Source: Acidobacteriota bacterium (lineage in GTDB: Bacteria; Acidobacteriota; Terriglobia; Terriglobales; Acidobacteriaceae). Taken from it: DNA of 64,000 nt. The stretch is from assembly GCA_013289765.1 (NCBI GenBank), contig JABCZI010000001.1, forward strand, positions 186,001 through 250,000. Reading direction: 5' to 3'. The notes below the pieces were generated by a model. It saw nothing but the letters and a program-made list of their open reading frames with translations, made no database searches and had not been told where the DNA came from. This document shows, piece after piece, positions 51,003-63,393 of this stretch; the first letter of the stretch is position 1; each line of letters starts with the position of its first letter. The translations under genes and the position numbers were made by a program.

Positions 51003-51199
51003 TTCTCTCCTTCCAAACATTCTGTTGCTCACGGGATTCTACTCCTCCTGATTCTCGGATTATGATTCGCGAATTTGATTCGCGGATTATGCTTCGCAGA
51101 TCATCTCTACCATTCCGATGCCTGTTCCGTCGCGCGCGTTGTCGTCCTCCTCCTGCCAACCACAGCATCCTTTATACTGCTCGTTCTCCTGGAGGCCCA

Positions 51200-52390
51200 A
51201 TGTCACTCTGCTCCCGCGCGATTTTCCCGAAGCCCGAAGCCCAAAGCCCAAAGGCAGTTCTCCTCATCCTCGCACTAACCCTCGCCGCCTCCGCCCAAAC
51301 CAAGCCTCGCGCCCGCGATCTCGGCGTCCCCTTCGACGGCTCGCCCGGCTCCAACAACGCCATCACCGACGTAAAAGGCGTCGAGGTCGGACACACTACG
51401 CTCATCTCCGGCGAAGGCAAACTCGTAGTCGGTACAGGCCCCGTCCGCACCGGAGTCACCGCCATCCATCCCCGCGGCAAGACCAGTAACGACGCCGTGT
51501 TCGCCGCCTGGTTCACCCTCAACGGTAACGGCGAAATGACCGGAACCACCTGGGTCGAGGACTCCGGCTTTCTCGACGGACCAGTAATGATCACCAACAC
51601 TCACAGCGTCGGCGTGGTCCGCGACGCCGTCATCGCCTGGAAGGTTAAGCACTCCACGCCTGACATGGAAGGCTACTTCTGGTCGCTGCCCGTCGTCGCC
51701 GAAACCTGGGACGGCTGGCTCAACGACATCAACGGATTCCACGTTCATCCGGAAGACGCCTGGCACGCCCTCGACGTCGCCCACACCGGCCCCGTTGAAG
51801 AAGGCAATGTCGGCGGCGGAACGGGAATGGTCTGCAACGAATTCAAAGGTGGCATCGGCACTTCATCCCGCGTGCTCGACGCCAAAGCCGGAGGCTACAC
51901 CATCGGCGTCCTCGTGCAATGCAATTACGGACGCCGCGATCAGCTCCGCGTCGCCGGCGTTCCCGTCGGCAAAGAAATTCCCGATCATCCCGCCTACGGA
52001 AAAAATGACGACACCGGCTCCATCATCGTCATCGTCGCCACCGATGCCCCGCTCATCCCTACGCAACTCAAACGCATCGCGCGCCGCGTCTCGCTCGGCC
52101 TCGGCCGCGACGGCAGCTACTCCGGCGACGGCTCCGGGGACATCTTCCTCGCCTTCTCCACCGCCAACCCCGGCGCAGTCAGCCCCAAGGGCGTCCATCA
52201 GCTAACCATGTTGCCCAACGACACCCTCGACCCACTCTTTCTCGCCACCGTTCAGGCCACCGAAGAAGCCGTAATCAATGCCATGGTCGCCGCCGAAACC
52301 ATGAAAGGCATCGACAATCACGAAGTGATCGCCTTACCTCACGACCGCCTCCGCGAAGTATTAAAGAAGTACAACCGCCTCGCAAAGTGA
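51200..52390 (+). CDS. P1 family peptidase (DmpA-like aminopeptidase), secreted
   Basis: ATG 51200 follows GGAGG; the earlier in-frame ORF start is not supported. A leader (about 1-34, ending SAQT) suggests export. The peptidase body begins RARDLGVPFDGSPGSNNAITDVKGVEVGHTT. P1 peptidases cleave themselves to expose an N-terminal Ser; by position (compare DmpA Gly249-Ser250) this is probably Gly273-Ser274 in DDTGSIIVIVATDAPL. The DGSGDIFLAFST stretch is also conserved. It should release N-terminal residues from peptides or amides. Total 396 aa. Confidence 0.92.
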   Translation: MSLCSRAIFPKPEAQSPKAVLLILALTLAASAQTKPRARDLGVPFDGSPGSNNAITDVKGVEVGHTTLISGEGKLVVGTGPVRTGVTAIHPRGKTSNDAVFAAWFTLNGNGEMTGTTWVEDSGFLDGPVMITNTHSVGVVRDAVIAWKVKHSTPDMEGYFWSLPVVAETWDGWLNDINGFHVHPEDAWHALDVAHTGPVEEGNVGGGTGMVCNEFKGGIGTSSRVLDAKAGGYTIGVLVQCNYGRRDQLRVAGVPVGKEIPDHPAYGKNDDTGSIIVIVATDAPLIPTQLKRIARRVSLGLGRDGSYSGDGSGDIFLAFSTANPGAVSPKGVHQLTMLPNDTLDPLFLATVQATEEAVINAMVAAETMKGIDNHEVIALPHDRLREVLKKYNRLAK

Positions 52391-53123: not shown

Positions 53124-53639
53124 TCAACCTGCACTCCGTCGAATCTTCTCCTCCCACCAGGTCCAATCGTTCATCCGAACTACTCCTGCCTCTGCGTAGG
53201 CATACGAACGGTAGCTGCTCCACTGCCAATCCTCGGGACTTGCCACCAGCCCGCGCACAACCGGATTGCGATGCATGTACTTTAGCTTCTCGACCTCTTT
53301 CTGTTGACTCCACAGATTGAAATCGTAGAAACGACGTTGCCAGAACTGACCGGAAAATTCGCCTTCCGTGGTCAGTCGCCGGCAGACGCCCAGCTTCACG
53401 GCCTGAATTACCTTCGAGGGATTGCCAATGAAAGGTTCCGAAATCAGTAGATGCACGTGCTCGGGCATGACCACGTACCCGATCACGACAAAACGGTAGC
53501 GCTCCCGCATCCGTTCCAGGACAGTAAGAAGCACGTCCCGGCGCGCAGCAGTGCCGAGTAGCGGCTTACGCCGGTAGCAACTCCAAGTGATGAAATGGAG
53601 GTCTCCCGTGCCGTAGTAACGCTTTAAGCCCCAGGGCAT
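53124..53639 (-). CDS. REP-associated tyrosine transposase (RAYT, Y1/IS200-like)
   Basis: This 171-residue HUH nuclease of the Y1 transposase superfamily has the metal-binding motif MPEHVHLL (His-Val-His) and the downstream tyrosine in EKLKYMHRNPV, its probable nucleophile. Early HFITWSCYRRKPLL and late WQWSSYRSY stretches are typical of RAYTs. It cuts single-stranded DNA at REP hairpins and is thought to spread or maintain them. The ATG at 53639 gives MPWGLKRYYGTGDLHFITWS, a usual RAYT N-terminus. It looks intact. The left REP is 21 bases beyond its stop. Confidence 0.95.
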   Translation of the reverse strand: MPWGLKRYYGTGDLHFITWSCYRRKPLLGTAARRDVLLTVLERMRERYRFVVIGYVVMPEHVHLLISEPFIGNPSKVIQAVKLGVCRRLTTEGEFSGQFWQRRFYDFNLWSQQKEVEKLKYMHRNPVVRGLVASPEDWQWSSYRSYAYAEAGVVRMNDWTWWEEKIRRSAG

Positions 53640-56330: not shown

Positions 56331-57554
56331 CTATCGCACGAGCAGCTGTGCGGCAGACGCGAGTGCGGCGGCGAATCCCTCGGAACTTGGAGCGCCGCCC
56401 TGCGCCAAATCTTTGCTGCCGCCACCGCGTCCGCCAATTTTGTTCAAGGTTTCCTTCAACAGAGCAGCCATATCGTAAGGCTGGCCTGCGGACTGGGCGA
56501 ACACCAGCGCGGGCTGTGGCGAAATGGTAGCAAGCAAGGCAACCGCAGCGGATTGGCGCGTCAGTTTCTGTGCCAGCAACTTGAGAAAGTTAAGATCACG
56601 GTTTGAAAACGTTCGGACCACAAGCCTGTGGCCATTTCTTTCGGGGACTTCCGACAGCAGAGCTGCGGCTTGGGCGGCGGCCAAGTCTTCCAGTGCTTGC
56701 TCCCCAAGCTTACGCAGCGACTTGATTTCGTCGAGAGCTTTTCGGACGTGATGGGGAACCTCGTAAATGCTGGCGGAAAACAACCCCGCAGTTTCGGTGA
56801 GCGTAGAGAAATCGCGGCGCGCCGTCGTCACCGCACGTTGGCCGGCAACAAATTCAACGCGGTATCCTTGACGAGCTTTTTCGGATTTGCGCACCAGAAT
56901 GCCGCCAATCTCCCCGGTGTGCGCCACATGCGTGCCACCGCAGGCGGTGAGGTCGAAGTCGCGGATATCGATGAGGCGTAACTGGTCGCGCTCCGCGGGA
57001 GGAAGTTTTCGCAGGCCGAGTGCCGCGGCTTCTTCGCGAGTTGTGAAGCGGATGTCTACGCCACGATTCTCAAGGACGATCTCATTCGCCAGCCGTTCGG
57101 CGGCTTCGCTTTGATCCGGGGAGAGCGAGGGCGTGTCGAGATCGATCGAGCAATAGTCGTCACCCATGTGGAATGAGACCGTCGGCATATTGAACAGACG
57201 GACAAAGGCGGCGGAGAGCACATGTTGCGCGGAGTGCTGCTGCATGTGATCACGGCGGCGGATGGAATTGATTTCGCCGCGGATGCGGCTCCCGGGCTGG
57301 ACATTCTTGAGCGGGGCTTCGAGGTAGTGGACGACGTGGCCGTCTTCAGTGTCGGCAACTTCCGTGATGCGGAGTTTCGCTGCAGCATCGGTGGCAGAGG
57401 CGATCCAGCCGGTATCGTGAATCTGTCCCCCGCTGGTCGGATAAAAAGCGGTGCGGTCCAGAATCAGCGCTGGGCGCGGGCTTTCGAGCACTGAGCGGAC
57501 CTCTGCATCGAAGTTGTAGAGGAAAGAATCGTGATAATACAGGCGTTCTGTCAT
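56331..57554 (-). CDS. Alanyl-tRNA editing protein (AlaX with DHHA1 domain)
   Basis: This 407-residue protein hydrolyses mischarged Ser- or Gly-tRNA(Ala). From ATG 57554 it has an AlaRS-like N-terminal barrel (RTAFYPTSGGQIHDTG) and the editing core with metal ligands His107 and His111 (HSAQH) plus Cys205 and His209 (CGGTH). The C-terminal DHHA1 domain ends with GGRGGGSKDLAQGG. It lacks the aminoacylation domain, as expected. The upstream part of the ORF (to 57695) is not needed for the domain. Confidence 0.93.
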   Translation of the reverse strand: MTERLYYHDSFLYNFDAEVRSVLESPRPALILDRTAFYPTSGGQIHDTGWIASATDAAAKLRITEVADTEDGHVVHYLEAPLKNVQPGSRIRGEINSIRRRDHMQQHSAQHVLSAAFVRLFNMPTVSFHMGDDYCSIDLDTPSLSPDQSEAAERLANEIVLENRGVDIRFTTREEAAALGLRKLPPAERDQLRLIDIRDFDLTACGGTHVAHTGEIGGILVRKSEKARQGYRVEFVAGQRAVTTARRDFSTLTETAGLFSASIYEVPHHVRKALDEIKSLRKLGEQALEDLAAAQAAALLSEVPERNGHRLVVRTFSNRDLNFLKLLAQKLTRQSAAVALLATISPQPALVFAQSAGQPYDMAALLKETLNKIGGRGGGSKDLAQGGAPSSEGFAAALASAAQLLVR

Positions 57555-57757: not shown

Positions 57758-59197
57758 ATGGACTCTATCGACGCTCTCAAGAAGCTTTTCGAGCAGCACT
57801 TCCGCACGCCTGCGGCGCGGATCCAGCCGCTGCAGGGCAAGCTTGGCGGATCAGGGCGCAATATCATCCGGCTCTCTGGGGAGAAAGTCAGCGCGATCGG
57901 TATTTTGTACAACGTGCGCGAAGAGAACATCGCATTCCTGGAATTTTCCCGCCATTTTCGCCGCCACGGCCTGCCCGTCCCGGAAATTTACGGCGAAGAC
58001 CTGGACAATGGCGCGTACCTGGAAGAAGATCTGGGCGACACGACGCTGTTCGAGTCTCTCTCGAAAACTCGAACGGGCGACACCATCGCCCCAGAGGCGA
58101 TTGAAGCCTATCGCAAAGTTGTGGCGGTGCTGCCGCGCTTTCAAGTTGAGGCGGGACGCGATCTGAATTACAAAGTCTGCTATCCCCGTGACAGCTTCGA
58201 TCGCCAGTCCATCGCATGGGACCTGAACTATTTCAAGTATTATTTTCTGCGCCTTGCCGGAATTCCCTTCAACGAGCAGGCTCTCGAAGACGATTTCGAC
58301 CATCTCACCGATTTTCTCTTGAGCGCCCCACGCGACTATTTCATGTACCGCGATTTCCAATCGCGCAACATCATGCTGCGCGGCGGACAGCCATATTTTC
58401 TGGACTACCAGGGCGGACGCAAAGGGGCGCTCCAATACGACATCGCTTCTCTTCTGTACGATGCCAAAGCCGATCTGCCGCCGGAACTCCGCCACCAGTT
58501 GCTCGATCTGTATATCGAAAAGCTCAGAAATTACGCCGACGGCACCCCCGAAGCCTTTCTGCATCATTACTACGCATATGTTTATGTCCGCATCCTGCAG
58601 GCGCTCGGGGCGTACGGCTTTCGCGGATTCTATGAACGCAAGCCGCACTTTCTGCAAAGCGTTCCCTACGCCCTGAAAAACCTGCGCTGGCTTTCGCACA
58701 ATGTGAAGCTGCCCATCGCGCTTCCAACCCTCATGGAAGCATTCAACAGCATGCTTGCGTCTGAAAAACTGCAGTCGCTGGCATCCGAAGCAGATACTCT
58801 AACGGTACGAATTTTTTCTTTTTCCTTTCACCGCGGAGGCGCGCCGAAAGATGAGAGCGGCAACGGCGGCGGATTCGTTTTTGATGGCCGCAGCCTGCCG
58901 AATCCCGGACGCGAAGAACGGTTCAAGCAGCTCACCGGCAAAGACGCGCCGGTCATCGATTACCTCAACCAGCAACAAAGCGTGCATCAGTTTCTGGCCA
59001 GCGTGATGTCACTAGTGGATGCCAGCGTTAACGAGTATCAACGCCGCGGCTTCAGGAATTTAATGGTTTCTTTCGGCTGCACCGGCGGCCAGCACCGCTC
59101 CGTATTTTTGGCGGAGCAGGTAGCGCGGCGCTTGCATGGGCGAACCGGGGTCGAGGTCGTGTTGCATCATCGTGAACTGGAGAGTCGCGGGCAATGA
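57758..59197 (+). CDS. AmgK-like sugar kinase fused to RapZ C-terminal domain
   Basis: The protein is 479 aa. Residues about 10-310 form an aminoglycoside/choline-kinase-like phosphotransferase: GSGRNIIRL loop, YRDFQSRNIM with catalytic Asp199 and Asn204, then FLDYQGGRKG. From about 345 to the end it matches the RapZ C-terminal domain (IFSFSFHRG-type start, DGRSLPNPG, FGCTGGQHRSV and a final HRELESR). RapZ-CTD senses glucosamine-6-phosphate in enteric bacteria. The next gene, overlapping by 4 bases, is a MurU-like nucleotidyltransferase, so the kinase is probably an AmgK that phosphorylates N-acetylmuramate or N-acetylglucosamine in wall recycling. Confidence 0.88.
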   Translation: MDSIDALKKLFEQHFRTPAARIQPLQGKLGGSGRNIIRLSGEKVSAIGILYNVREENIAFLEFSRHFRRHGLPVPEIYGEDLDNGAYLEEDLGDTTLFESLSKTRTGDTIAPEAIEAYRKVVAVLPRFQVEAGRDLNYKVCYPRDSFDRQSIAWDLNYFKYYFLRLAGIPFNEQALEDDFDHLTDFLLSAPRDYFMYRDFQSRNIMLRGGQPYFLDYQGGRKGALQYDIASLLYDAKADLPPELRHQLLDLYIEKLRNYADGTPEAFLHHYYAYVYVRILQALGAYGFRGFYERKPHFLQSVPYALKNLRWLSHNVKLPIALPTLMEAFNSMLASEKLQSLASEADTLTVRIFSFSFHRGGAPKDESGNGGGFVFDGRSLPNPGREERFKQLTGKDAPVIDYLNQQQSVHQFLASVMSLVDASVNEYQRRGFRNLMVSFGCTGGQHRSVFLAEQVARRLHGRTGVEVVLHHRELESRGQ

Positions 59198-59937
59198 AAG
59201 CGATGATTCTGGCAGCCGGCCTGGGCACGCGGCTGCGGCCACTCACCAACGATCGTCCCAAGGCGCTGGTAGAAGTGGCGGGGCGCACGCTGCTGGAAAT
59301 TACAATTGCGCGCTTGCGCGAGTTTGGCGTGAGCGAGGTGATCGTCAACGTCCATCACTTTGCCGATATGGTTGTCGAGTATCTGACGAAGAATAAGAAC
59401 TTCGGCATGCGGATTGAAATTTCGCGGGAAGACGATTTACTCGATACTGGCGGAGGTTTAAGAAAGGCTGCCTGGTTTTTTCTGGAAAATTCCAGAGACG
59501 AACCGTTCATTCTGCACAACGTCGACGTCATCAGCACGATTGACCTCAGTAGCATGGTGCAGTTTCATAAGGAGCGTAAGGCGCTAGCTACACTGGCGGT
59601 GCAGGCGCGAGAAACATTTCGATACTTGCTGTTCGACGAGCATCTGCGGCTTGCCGGAAGGCTCGCCGGTCAGAACGGGCAGGCGGAATTTGTTCGGCCT
59701 TCGCGGCAACTTGAGATTCAGGCCCTGGCATTCTCCGGCATCCACATAATCTCGCCGCGTTTGCTGTCGATGATGACCGAGGACGGAGCTTTCTCCATCA
59801 TCACCTCCTACCTCCAGTTCGCCAAGCAGGGGGAACCAATCATCGGCTTTCGTTCCGATGAATATTACTGGCGTGATCTGGGACGGCCCGAGAACGTGGC
59901 GCAGGCGGAGAAGGATTTCAGGGACAAGGTTCTGTAG
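59194..59937 (+). CDS. Nucleotidyltransferase, MurU-like (MurNAc-1-P uridylyltransferase)
   Basis: This 247-residue enzyme has the sugar-nucleotidyltransferase signature LAAGLGTRLRPLTNDRPKAL at the N-terminus, a GGGLRKA stretch and HNVDVIST (metal-binding Asp). It overlaps the kinase-RapZ gene by ATGA, so the two are translated together. In the AmgK-MurU route this enzyme turns MurNAc-1-phosphate into UDP-MurNAc, bypassing de novo synthesis. Glucose-1-phosphate or mannose-1-phosphate could also be substrates by sequence alone. Confidence 0.85.
   Translation: MKAMILAAGLGTRLRPLTNDRPKALVEVAGRTLLEITIARLREFGVSEVIVNVHHFADMVVEYLTKNKNFGMRIEISREDDLLDTGGGLRKAAWFFLENSRDEPFILHNVDVISTIDLSSMVQFHKERKALATLAVQARETFRYLLFDEHLRLAGRLAGQNGQAEFVRPSRQLEIQALAFSGIHIISPRLLSMMTEDGAFSIITSYLQFAKQGEPIIGFRSDEYYWRDLGRPENVAQAEKDFRDKVL

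Positions 59938-60810: not shown

Positions 60811-63393
<2,583 letters not shown>

Follow-up and report, generated by a model that had tools for sequence, protein, structure and literature searches.

The closest described relatives of the system reported here are the AmgK-MurU wall-recycling shunt of Pseudomonas and Caulobacter, in which an anomeric-kinase-type gene of the APH fold stands beside a gene for a MurU-type nucleotidyltransferase (NTase), and the two-domain protein RapZ of Escherichia coli together with YvcJ of Bacillus subtilis. The AmgK proteins of Pseudomonas and Caulobacter share just 30.1% identity and are both in use (PMC13046382), and in the Pseudomonas route it is MupP that converts N-acetylmuramic acid 6-phosphate (MurNAc-6-P) to N-acetylmuramic acid (MurNAc) (PMC13041923). 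The MurU pathway is also stated for Tannerella forsythia (PMC13046382), an organism that imports free MurNAc and has neither MurA nor MurB (PMC7670621, PMC5790795), and a 2-modified MurNAc probe labels E. coli solely after addition of amgK and murU, the strain in question carrying the genes of T. forsythia (PMC13041923). The ligand pocket of E. coli RapZ consists of H190, T248, G249, H252 and R253 and was seen with malonate or sulphate (PMC5737377); C247 lies near this pocket (PMC9841335). Here we describe a locus that joins parts of both systems. In a 64,000-nucleotide stretch of an Acidobacteriaceae genome (assembly GCA_013289765.1, contig JABCZI010000001.1, positions 186,001 to 250,000; the whole stretch is called the window below), a gene for an AmgK-like kinase fused to the C-terminal domain (CTD) of RapZ overlaps a gene for a MurU-like NTase.

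The fusion is encoded on the forward strand at 57758..59197 of the window as one open reading frame (ORF) of 479 amino acids (aa) with an ATG start, and its predicted structure (AF2) has a mean predicted local distance difference test score (pLDDT) of 90.4 and a predicted template modelling score (pTM) of 0.74. Residues 1 to about 320 (57758..58717) form an APH-fold kinase domain that contains the motifs YRDFQSRN (aa 197-204) and LDYQGG (aa 215-220) and is matched by the Pfam family APH (PF01636) at aa 58-257 with 46 bits, the cut-off being 23.2. Residues 349-475 (58802..59182) match the RapZ CTD family PF22740 with 117.6 bits (cut-off 27) over positions 2-121 of the 121 in the profile, and the CTD is therefore complete. 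The remainder of RapZ is missing: no RapZ N-terminal domain, which carries the P-loop, is found among the Pfam matches of the protein, and the full-length RapZ model NF003828 reaches 111.9 bits against a cut-off of 244 and aligns at positions 148-278 only. At the junction GGGCAATGAAAGCG, the TGA of the fusion and the ATG of the next gene share four bases (ATGA). This second gene (59194..59937, forward strand) encodes a sugar-1-phosphate NTase of 247 aa that is MurU-like by NCBIfam models, solved relatives and motif, with LDTGGG at aa 83-88. A first-pass annotation, made from the letters of the window alone, had noted both that an AmgK-like phosphotransferase is joined to the RapZ domain and that its stop overlaps the start of a sugar NTase. 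Both observations are confirmed.

We found this architecture far beyond the window. Within its family, both domains run through all 46 distinct fusion ORFs that were read from loci with a BLAST score >400 (the window's own included), and the kinase part was matched at E<=1e-10 in 126 of 300 genomes, the presence of the CTD being confirmed for part of these. In a sample of the phylum, the full query was matched somewhere in 285/297 genomes. Among the matches listed, near-full-length matches of high identity were confined to six genomes that all belong to the window's family, in one of which the match falls into two pieces of a single frame; the others were partial and covered either kinase or RapZ domain at ~25-43% identity. 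A scan with a kinase alignment and the patterns WDLNYFK and YRD[FY]QSRN, using one genome per species, returned at least 579 relatives. By record title, the best 80 of these belong to Acidobacteriota, Bacteroidota, Calditrichota, Elusimicrobiota, Neomarinimicrobiota, Ignavibacteriota and KSB1 and also include one Deferribacteres bin, one Opitutae bin and some unplaced records; the best named relative in the scan is Candidatus Sulfotelmatobacter sp. RYN_10. Kinase motif and CTD loop lie within one ORF in 77 of the 80 loci. Exceptions are a locus that stops at a contig end (L114) and one in which the kinase motif differs although the ORF aligns to residue 479 (L139). In a Calditrichaceae bin (L168:3896-5332), kinase (339 aa) and CTD (135 aa) follow each other as two ORFs, which may reflect either a genuine separation of the gene or an error in the sequence.

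The fusion is common in Bacteroidota. In the order of Draconibacterium orientale, which we take to be Bacteroidales, 323 of 393 genomes match the fusion of that species at E<=1e-10. Even the weakest of the best matches has an E-value of 4e-55, so that no genome's best match resembles a stand-alone kinase, and the single matches listed (about half) are nearly full length. The first-pass annotation had suggested a survey of how often RapZ CTDs are fused to such kinases; the fusion is matched in the greater part of the genomes sampled from one Bacteroidota order and occurs in several further phyla. Together, the phylum, family, cross-phylum and Bacteroidota surveys rule out an assembly or strain oddity. 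We regard the kinase-RapZ CTD architecture as a variant, widespread and not peculiar to this genome, of a known pathway. Among 12 genomes reached via named loci, the fused CTD is present in all and a second RapZ domain was found in two, both Elusimicrobia. The same search was positive in 6 of 14 controls and missed B. subtilis, which has YvcJ, and may therefore have overlooked a second RapZ in the other ten; these data indicate only weakly that two-domain RapZ is absent from most fusion hosts.

The NTase gene accompanies the fusion in most places. It starts between -30 and +60 bases of the fusion stop in 44 of the 46 distinct loci of the window's family, and ATGA stands at the stop in 39 of the 46. 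Across phyla, the start falls into this interval in 55/80 loci, within 61-500 bases in 9 and farther away in 1, and the ATGA overlap is seen in 29; no NTase match was found in 15/80, of which 3 have <800 bases remaining downstream. This pairing suggests that selection tends to keep fusion and NTase genes together. We also considered a wider operon and rejected it, as clustering of the ORFs of 20 family loci and 48 other loci left only fusion and NTase broadly conserved. The next-largest neighbour clusters among the 48 other loci comprise at most 5 loci each, and the further clusters of the 20 family loci lie inside the two genes on the opposite strand and resemble shadow frames.

We think it quite probable that the pair is a two-gene cassette for the salvage of MurNAc, and possibly of N-acetylglucosamine (GlcNAc), such as Bacteroidota use. 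In it, the kinase half would phosphorylate a free amino sugar at C1, and the NTase of the overlapping gene would make a UDP-sugar (UDP-MurNAc), thereby bypassing MurA and MurB. Domain make-up, pairing of the genes, distribution, residues of the pocket and predicted fold were established by the analysis itself, from which we deduce the substrate, the sequence of the reactions, the ligand and a catalytic or regulatory part for the CTD. On the side of the kinase, the NCBIfam kinase models matched at E<=0.001 are two AmgK models only (NF045759 and NF045698, with 58.1 and 51 bits). The catalytic residues D199 and N204 are invariant across 34 aligned sequences and the fold is of the APH type. The nearest solved fold is 3csv (Z 28.8, root-mean-square deviation (rmsd) 2.9, 308 residues aligned), followed by corramycin phosphotransferase (Z 26.9); N-acetylhexosamine 1-kinase (4ocj; Z 20.0, rmsd 3.7, 289 aligned) and homoserine kinase (Z ~19-20) are matched as well. 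The fold alone does not decide the substrate of the kinase. The sequence families point to AmgK only. The window's kinase differs from AmgK of Pseudomonas and Caulobacter in its CTD, which the AmgK models are too short to include with their 324 and 360 positions, and in its own YRDFQSRN signature.

On the side of the NTase, the best NCBIfam family is MurU (NF045761 and NF045697, with 131.9 and 124.4 bits), and models for mannose-1-phosphate, heptose and other NTases match behind it. The best solved relatives are 4y7t, which we take to be MurU of P. putida, and 8hhd, which is named N-acetylmuramate alpha-1-phosphate uridylyltransferase. Both chains carry the motif L[DE]TGGG, as does the window's NTase. 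The motif is present in 34 of 39 fusion-linked NTases (the window's own, 9 of its family and 29 others) and in none (0/21) of the NTases that neighbour stand-alone kinases in other acidobacteria, where LGSAGG, LDTAGG, LGTGGG etc. take its place. In the NTase tree, the 39 fusion-linked copies group together with support of 98/99. Stand-alone AmgK-like kinases were encountered in other acidobacteria (L009-L031), mostly with an NTase lacking L[DE]TGGG just upstream. We considered these kinase/NTase pairs of the phylum as members of the same pathway and dismissed the idea: their NTases lack the motif and lie on other branches, and may therefore serve another sugar.

Since the Bacteroidales copies seen are fusions, as the weakest best match shows, AmgK of T. 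forsythia is very probably of the same fusion type. By this analogy, the pair that serves MurNAc incorporation in E. coli would be a working example of the cassette. The AmgK-only kinase models, the likeness to N-acetylhexosamine 1-kinases, the L[DE]TGGG motif and the T. forsythia pair all speak for the AmgK-MurU wall-recycling shunt that the first-pass annotation had suggested. The content of the genomes points in the same direction. MurQ is found above cut-off in 270 of 300 family genomes. Where high-quality family genomes lack a strong MurQ match (best E above 1e-20), the kinase is present in 9/10, vs 84/198 of the others (Fisher p 0.006); at all qualities the figures are 17/25 and 109/275 (p 0.01). 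A strict exclusion of MurQ by the cassette was rejected in view of the 270 MurQ-bearing genomes and of the strong match in the window's own, and the association of the kinase with MurQ loss remains.

Several observations weigh against the salvage reading. The AmgK scores of the fusion lie far below the curated cut-offs of 550 and 500 bits, and we therefore call the kinase AmgK-like and do not place it in the AmgK equivalog. The NTase likewise stays below the curated MurU cut-offs of 250 and 370 bits, and the NTase tree gives no supported link of the fusion-linked group to the two MurU chains. Choline kinases (LicA and the human enzyme) are about as similar in fold to the kinase half as N-acetylhexosamine kinases (Z 19-20). 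Twelve of the 80 cross-phylum loci have no NTase match despite at least 800 bases downstream, and no neighbouring wall-recycling gene is conserved among the 20 family and 48 other loci that were clustered. Four of the 10 MurQ-less high-quality genomes belong to one genus, which deprives the MurQ test of independence, and among the nine MurQ-less kinase carriers there is one with a fusion-family kinase frame of just 367 aa (G365:C12:11404-12432). Owing to this clustering and to the short frame, we take the MurQ association as support, not as proof. Lastly, the window's genome has strong matches to MurQ and AnmK, which sets its organism apart from the MurNAc-importing T. forsythia without MurA and MurB, and the shunt would therefore add to the catabolic route and not replace it.

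Some of these findings would also suit a cassette that serves another sugar or an alcohol (heptose, mannose, choline) and has no part in wall recycling, namely the scores below the AmgK and MurU cut-offs, the likeness to LicA and human choline kinase and the matches to mannose and heptose NTase models. We regard such a role as unlikely, given that no kinase model other than AmgK is matched in NCBIfam at the above threshold, that the NTase carries L[DE]TGGG, that the kinase is associated with MurQ loss and that polysaccharide genes are not conserved as neighbours. The MurNAc activity of the T. forsythia pair argues in the same sense if that pair is of the fusion type.

A feature that distinguishes the proposed salvage cassette from the shunt of Pseudomonas and Caulobacter is the CTD, whose predicted structure has a mean pLDDT of 94.6 and superimposes on the CTD of E. 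coli RapZ (5o5s) with Z 20.0 and rmsd 1.6 over 123 aligned residues at 38% identity. We compared the CTDs of 34 fusions with those of 22 two-domain RapZ proteins (E. coli and 21 from the genomes sampled, whose P-loops read G....GK in 18 and are changed in 3). RapZ proteins of Acidobacteriaceae (L001, L188, L191-L196, L199) often end their P-loop in GMSGSGKA, GMSGSGKL etc. and not in GK[ST]. In E. coli numbering, the phosphate loop residues C247, T248, G249, G250, H252, R253 and S254 are kept in 34/34 fusions and 22/22 two-domain RapZ; the fusions also retain D182 (34/34) and F181 (33/34). In the window, this loop reads C-T-G-G-Q-H-R-S (aa 441-448; 59078..59101, forward strand). The sugar side is different. 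Position 190 is Gly in 34/34 fusions (G384 in the window's) and His, Tyr or Asn in 21/22 two-domain RapZ; position 191 is Arg or Lys in 34/34 fusions and aromatic in 22/22 two-domain RapZ. All 34 fusions moreover have an [NH]-G-G-G loop, preceded by Gly in 33, which results from five columns that are empty in 22/22 two-domain RapZ and from a change of A177-D178 to Gly-Gly. The rebuilt loops of the window's protein are D-x-S-G-N-G-G-G (aa 365-372) and P-N-P-G-R (aa 381-385), encoded within 58850..58912 on the forward strand.

The E. coli pocket is thus incomplete in the fusions, with four of its five residues kept and H190 lost in 34/34. The grip on the phosphate is thus retained, and the sugar side has been rebuilt in the same manner throughout, which is what a change of ligand would predict. 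Since the exchange of H190 for Gly, the adjacent Arg or Lys and the Gly-rich loop are fixed, the ligand of the fusion CTD is probably not glucosamine-6-phosphate (GlcN6P). The CTD is probably a small-molecule pocket that grips the phosphate of an amino-sugar-phosphate via its cysteine-phosphatase-type loop, and the ligand would be related to GlcN6P and likely bulkier, for example MurNAc-6-P. Where two-domain RapZ has an aromatic residue by the pocket, an Arg would go well with a carboxylate, for instance that of MurNAc's lactyl group. Such a ligand would either be hydrolysed by the CTD or be used to gate the kinase. In its C-terminal tail, the fusion is not obviously like E. coli RapZ with its RNA-binding basic tail: the last 12 residues contain 0 to 4 Lys/Arg, a count made on the 34 fusions only. 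The window's genome also encodes a two-domain RapZ (L001), as a 333-aa frame on another contig. This protein keeps the pocket His (LPNPHF), and both pocket types are therefore found in one cell.

The first-pass annotation had suggested a self-sensing kinase that amino-sugar levels could control directly; in this version, the CTD would bind GlcN6P as E. coli RapZ does and allosterically tune the kinase to the amino-sugar supply. The completeness of the CTD, its 38% identity to E. coli and the conservation of T248, G249, H252 and R253 in all fusions agree with this idea. GlcN6P is bound by the E. coli CTD on its own with a dissociation constant (KD) of 10 nM (PMC7073468), and the authors of the E. 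coli CTD work describe the putative site as highly conserved among RapZ homologues. Against it stand the uniform loss of H190, which belongs to the five-residue pocket (PMC5737377), the Arg or Lys that follows and the inserted [NH]-G-G-G loop. The proposal as it was worded is not supported, and we consider a GlcN6P sensor quite improbable. A CTD that serves dimerisation or folding alone, and to which a ligand is irrelevant, would account for the retention of F181 and D182, both of which are needed for the E. coli CTD dimer (PMC5737377). Against this, the positions that do not vary along the full-length protein include the residues of the pocket and most of the Gly-rich loop, which is more than a pure dimeriser would need, and this role appears unlikely, too.

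The phosphate loop suggests catalysis as a live alternative to sensing, because G-C-T-G-G-x-H-R-S fits the cysteine-phosphatase signature C-x-x-G-x-x-R-[ST]. If the CTD were catalytic, the obvious reaction beside an anomeric kinase would be that of MurNAc-6-P to MurNAc, and we treat this as a live possibility. The CTD would then be a cysteine-dependent sugar-6-phosphatase rebuilt for MurNAc-6-P, and the fusion would unite MupP and AmgK in one polypeptide that removes the phosphate from C6, adds one at C1 and feeds MurU. Such a two-step enzyme can be compatible with the salvage reading, the two overlapping in their odds. We hold it as a tentative idea, possible but short of probable.

The loop is invariant in the 34 fusions and lies between strand and helix in both models, as in dual-specificity cysteine phosphatases, and tyrosine and dual-specificity phosphatases appear in the fold list of the CTD with Z 4.3-4.7 (DUSP14, 2wgp: Z 4.7, rmsd 3.6 over 91 residues). 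These values are middling, however, and phosphofructokinase domains score higher (8w2g: Z 6.6, rmsd 4.0 over 97), so that the fold comparison neither proves nor excludes a phosphatase. In dual-specificity phosphatases, the general acid lies ~30 residues before the Cys; the corresponding stretch of the CTD model is a helix, and no general acid is obvious there. The Cys stands ~35 residues before the end of the alignment in the CTD model and presumably in several phosphatase targets as well, a likeness to which we give no weight.

From the literature, the likeness of the RapZ loop to tyrosine phosphatases is already in print (PMC7199280). The activity of E. coli RapZ is reported to be abolished by C247A and C247S, its authors suspect a catalytic thiol, and the same 2022 structure paper reports a likely transformed GlcN6P in the RapZ crystal (PMC9841335). 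For YvcJ of B. subtilis, NTPase activity, phosphatase activity and binding of UDP-GlcNAc are stated, the last of which is lost in a Walker A mutant (PMC7525490). The CTD may therefore not be the UDP-GlcNAc site of YvcJ, and we rejected YvcJ as proof that the ligand of the CTD has drifted. HpaP of Xanthomonas is named an ATPase and phosphatase (PMC10782981); RapZ authors cite it among mutant phenotypes of distant species (PMC7073468), from which citation we infer that HpaP is a RapZ homologue.

A supply of MurNAc-6-P would come from AnmK, found in 285 of 300 family genomes and in 207 of the 208 of high quality. It is near-universal there with or without the kinase and therefore uninformative in this family. 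In the Bacteroidota order, AnmK was matched in 25/40 genomes with the fusion and in 15/40 without (Fisher p 0.044), and is thus missing in 15/40 and 25/40, respectively. This comparison covered 80 of the 393 genomes and left out three genomes of 1.2-1.3 Mb; of the 40 without a fusion match, 17 are listed as such, and the other 23 were assigned to this group since the full match list does not contain them. AnmK-derived MurNAc-6-P is therefore not a constant partner of the fusion, and the idea of AnmK as such a partner is weakened.

If the cassette reading is true, Bacteroidota and several little-studied phyla would salvage MurNAc via a kinase that is permanently tied to a RapZ-type domain. The fusion would also offer an outside handle on the open E. 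coli question of whether the RapZ pocket serves sensing or catalysis, as its CTD is joined to a likely metabolic partner and can be probed with simple substrates, apart from small RNAs. Should the CTD be a phosphatase, the MupP step would be filled in Bacteroidota and Acidobacteriaceae, and RapZ would be a regulator derived from a sugar phosphatase, or still be one. A search of the open-licence literature found no paper with both RapZ and AmgK, and a search for phosphotransferase and "RapZ C-terminal" found the RapZ structure paper alone.

The same genome further has one stronger APH match, 16 short APH matches within long frames, and four MurU-model matches that are weaker than that of the window's NTase. 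Upstream of the fusion, the divergent neighbour at 56331-57548 (reverse strand) encodes an AlaX-like alanyl-tRNA editing protein with a DHHA1-type end that scores below the AlaXM cut-off. Downstream of the pair, a hybrid histidine kinase with PAS, GAF and receiver domains is encoded at 60811-63393 (forward strand); its best NCBIfam model is CckA, below cut-off. Farther upstream lie a gene for a 171-aa IS200-like (Y1) transposase at 53124-53639 (reverse strand) and a peptidase family S58 gene at 51062-52390 (forward strand).

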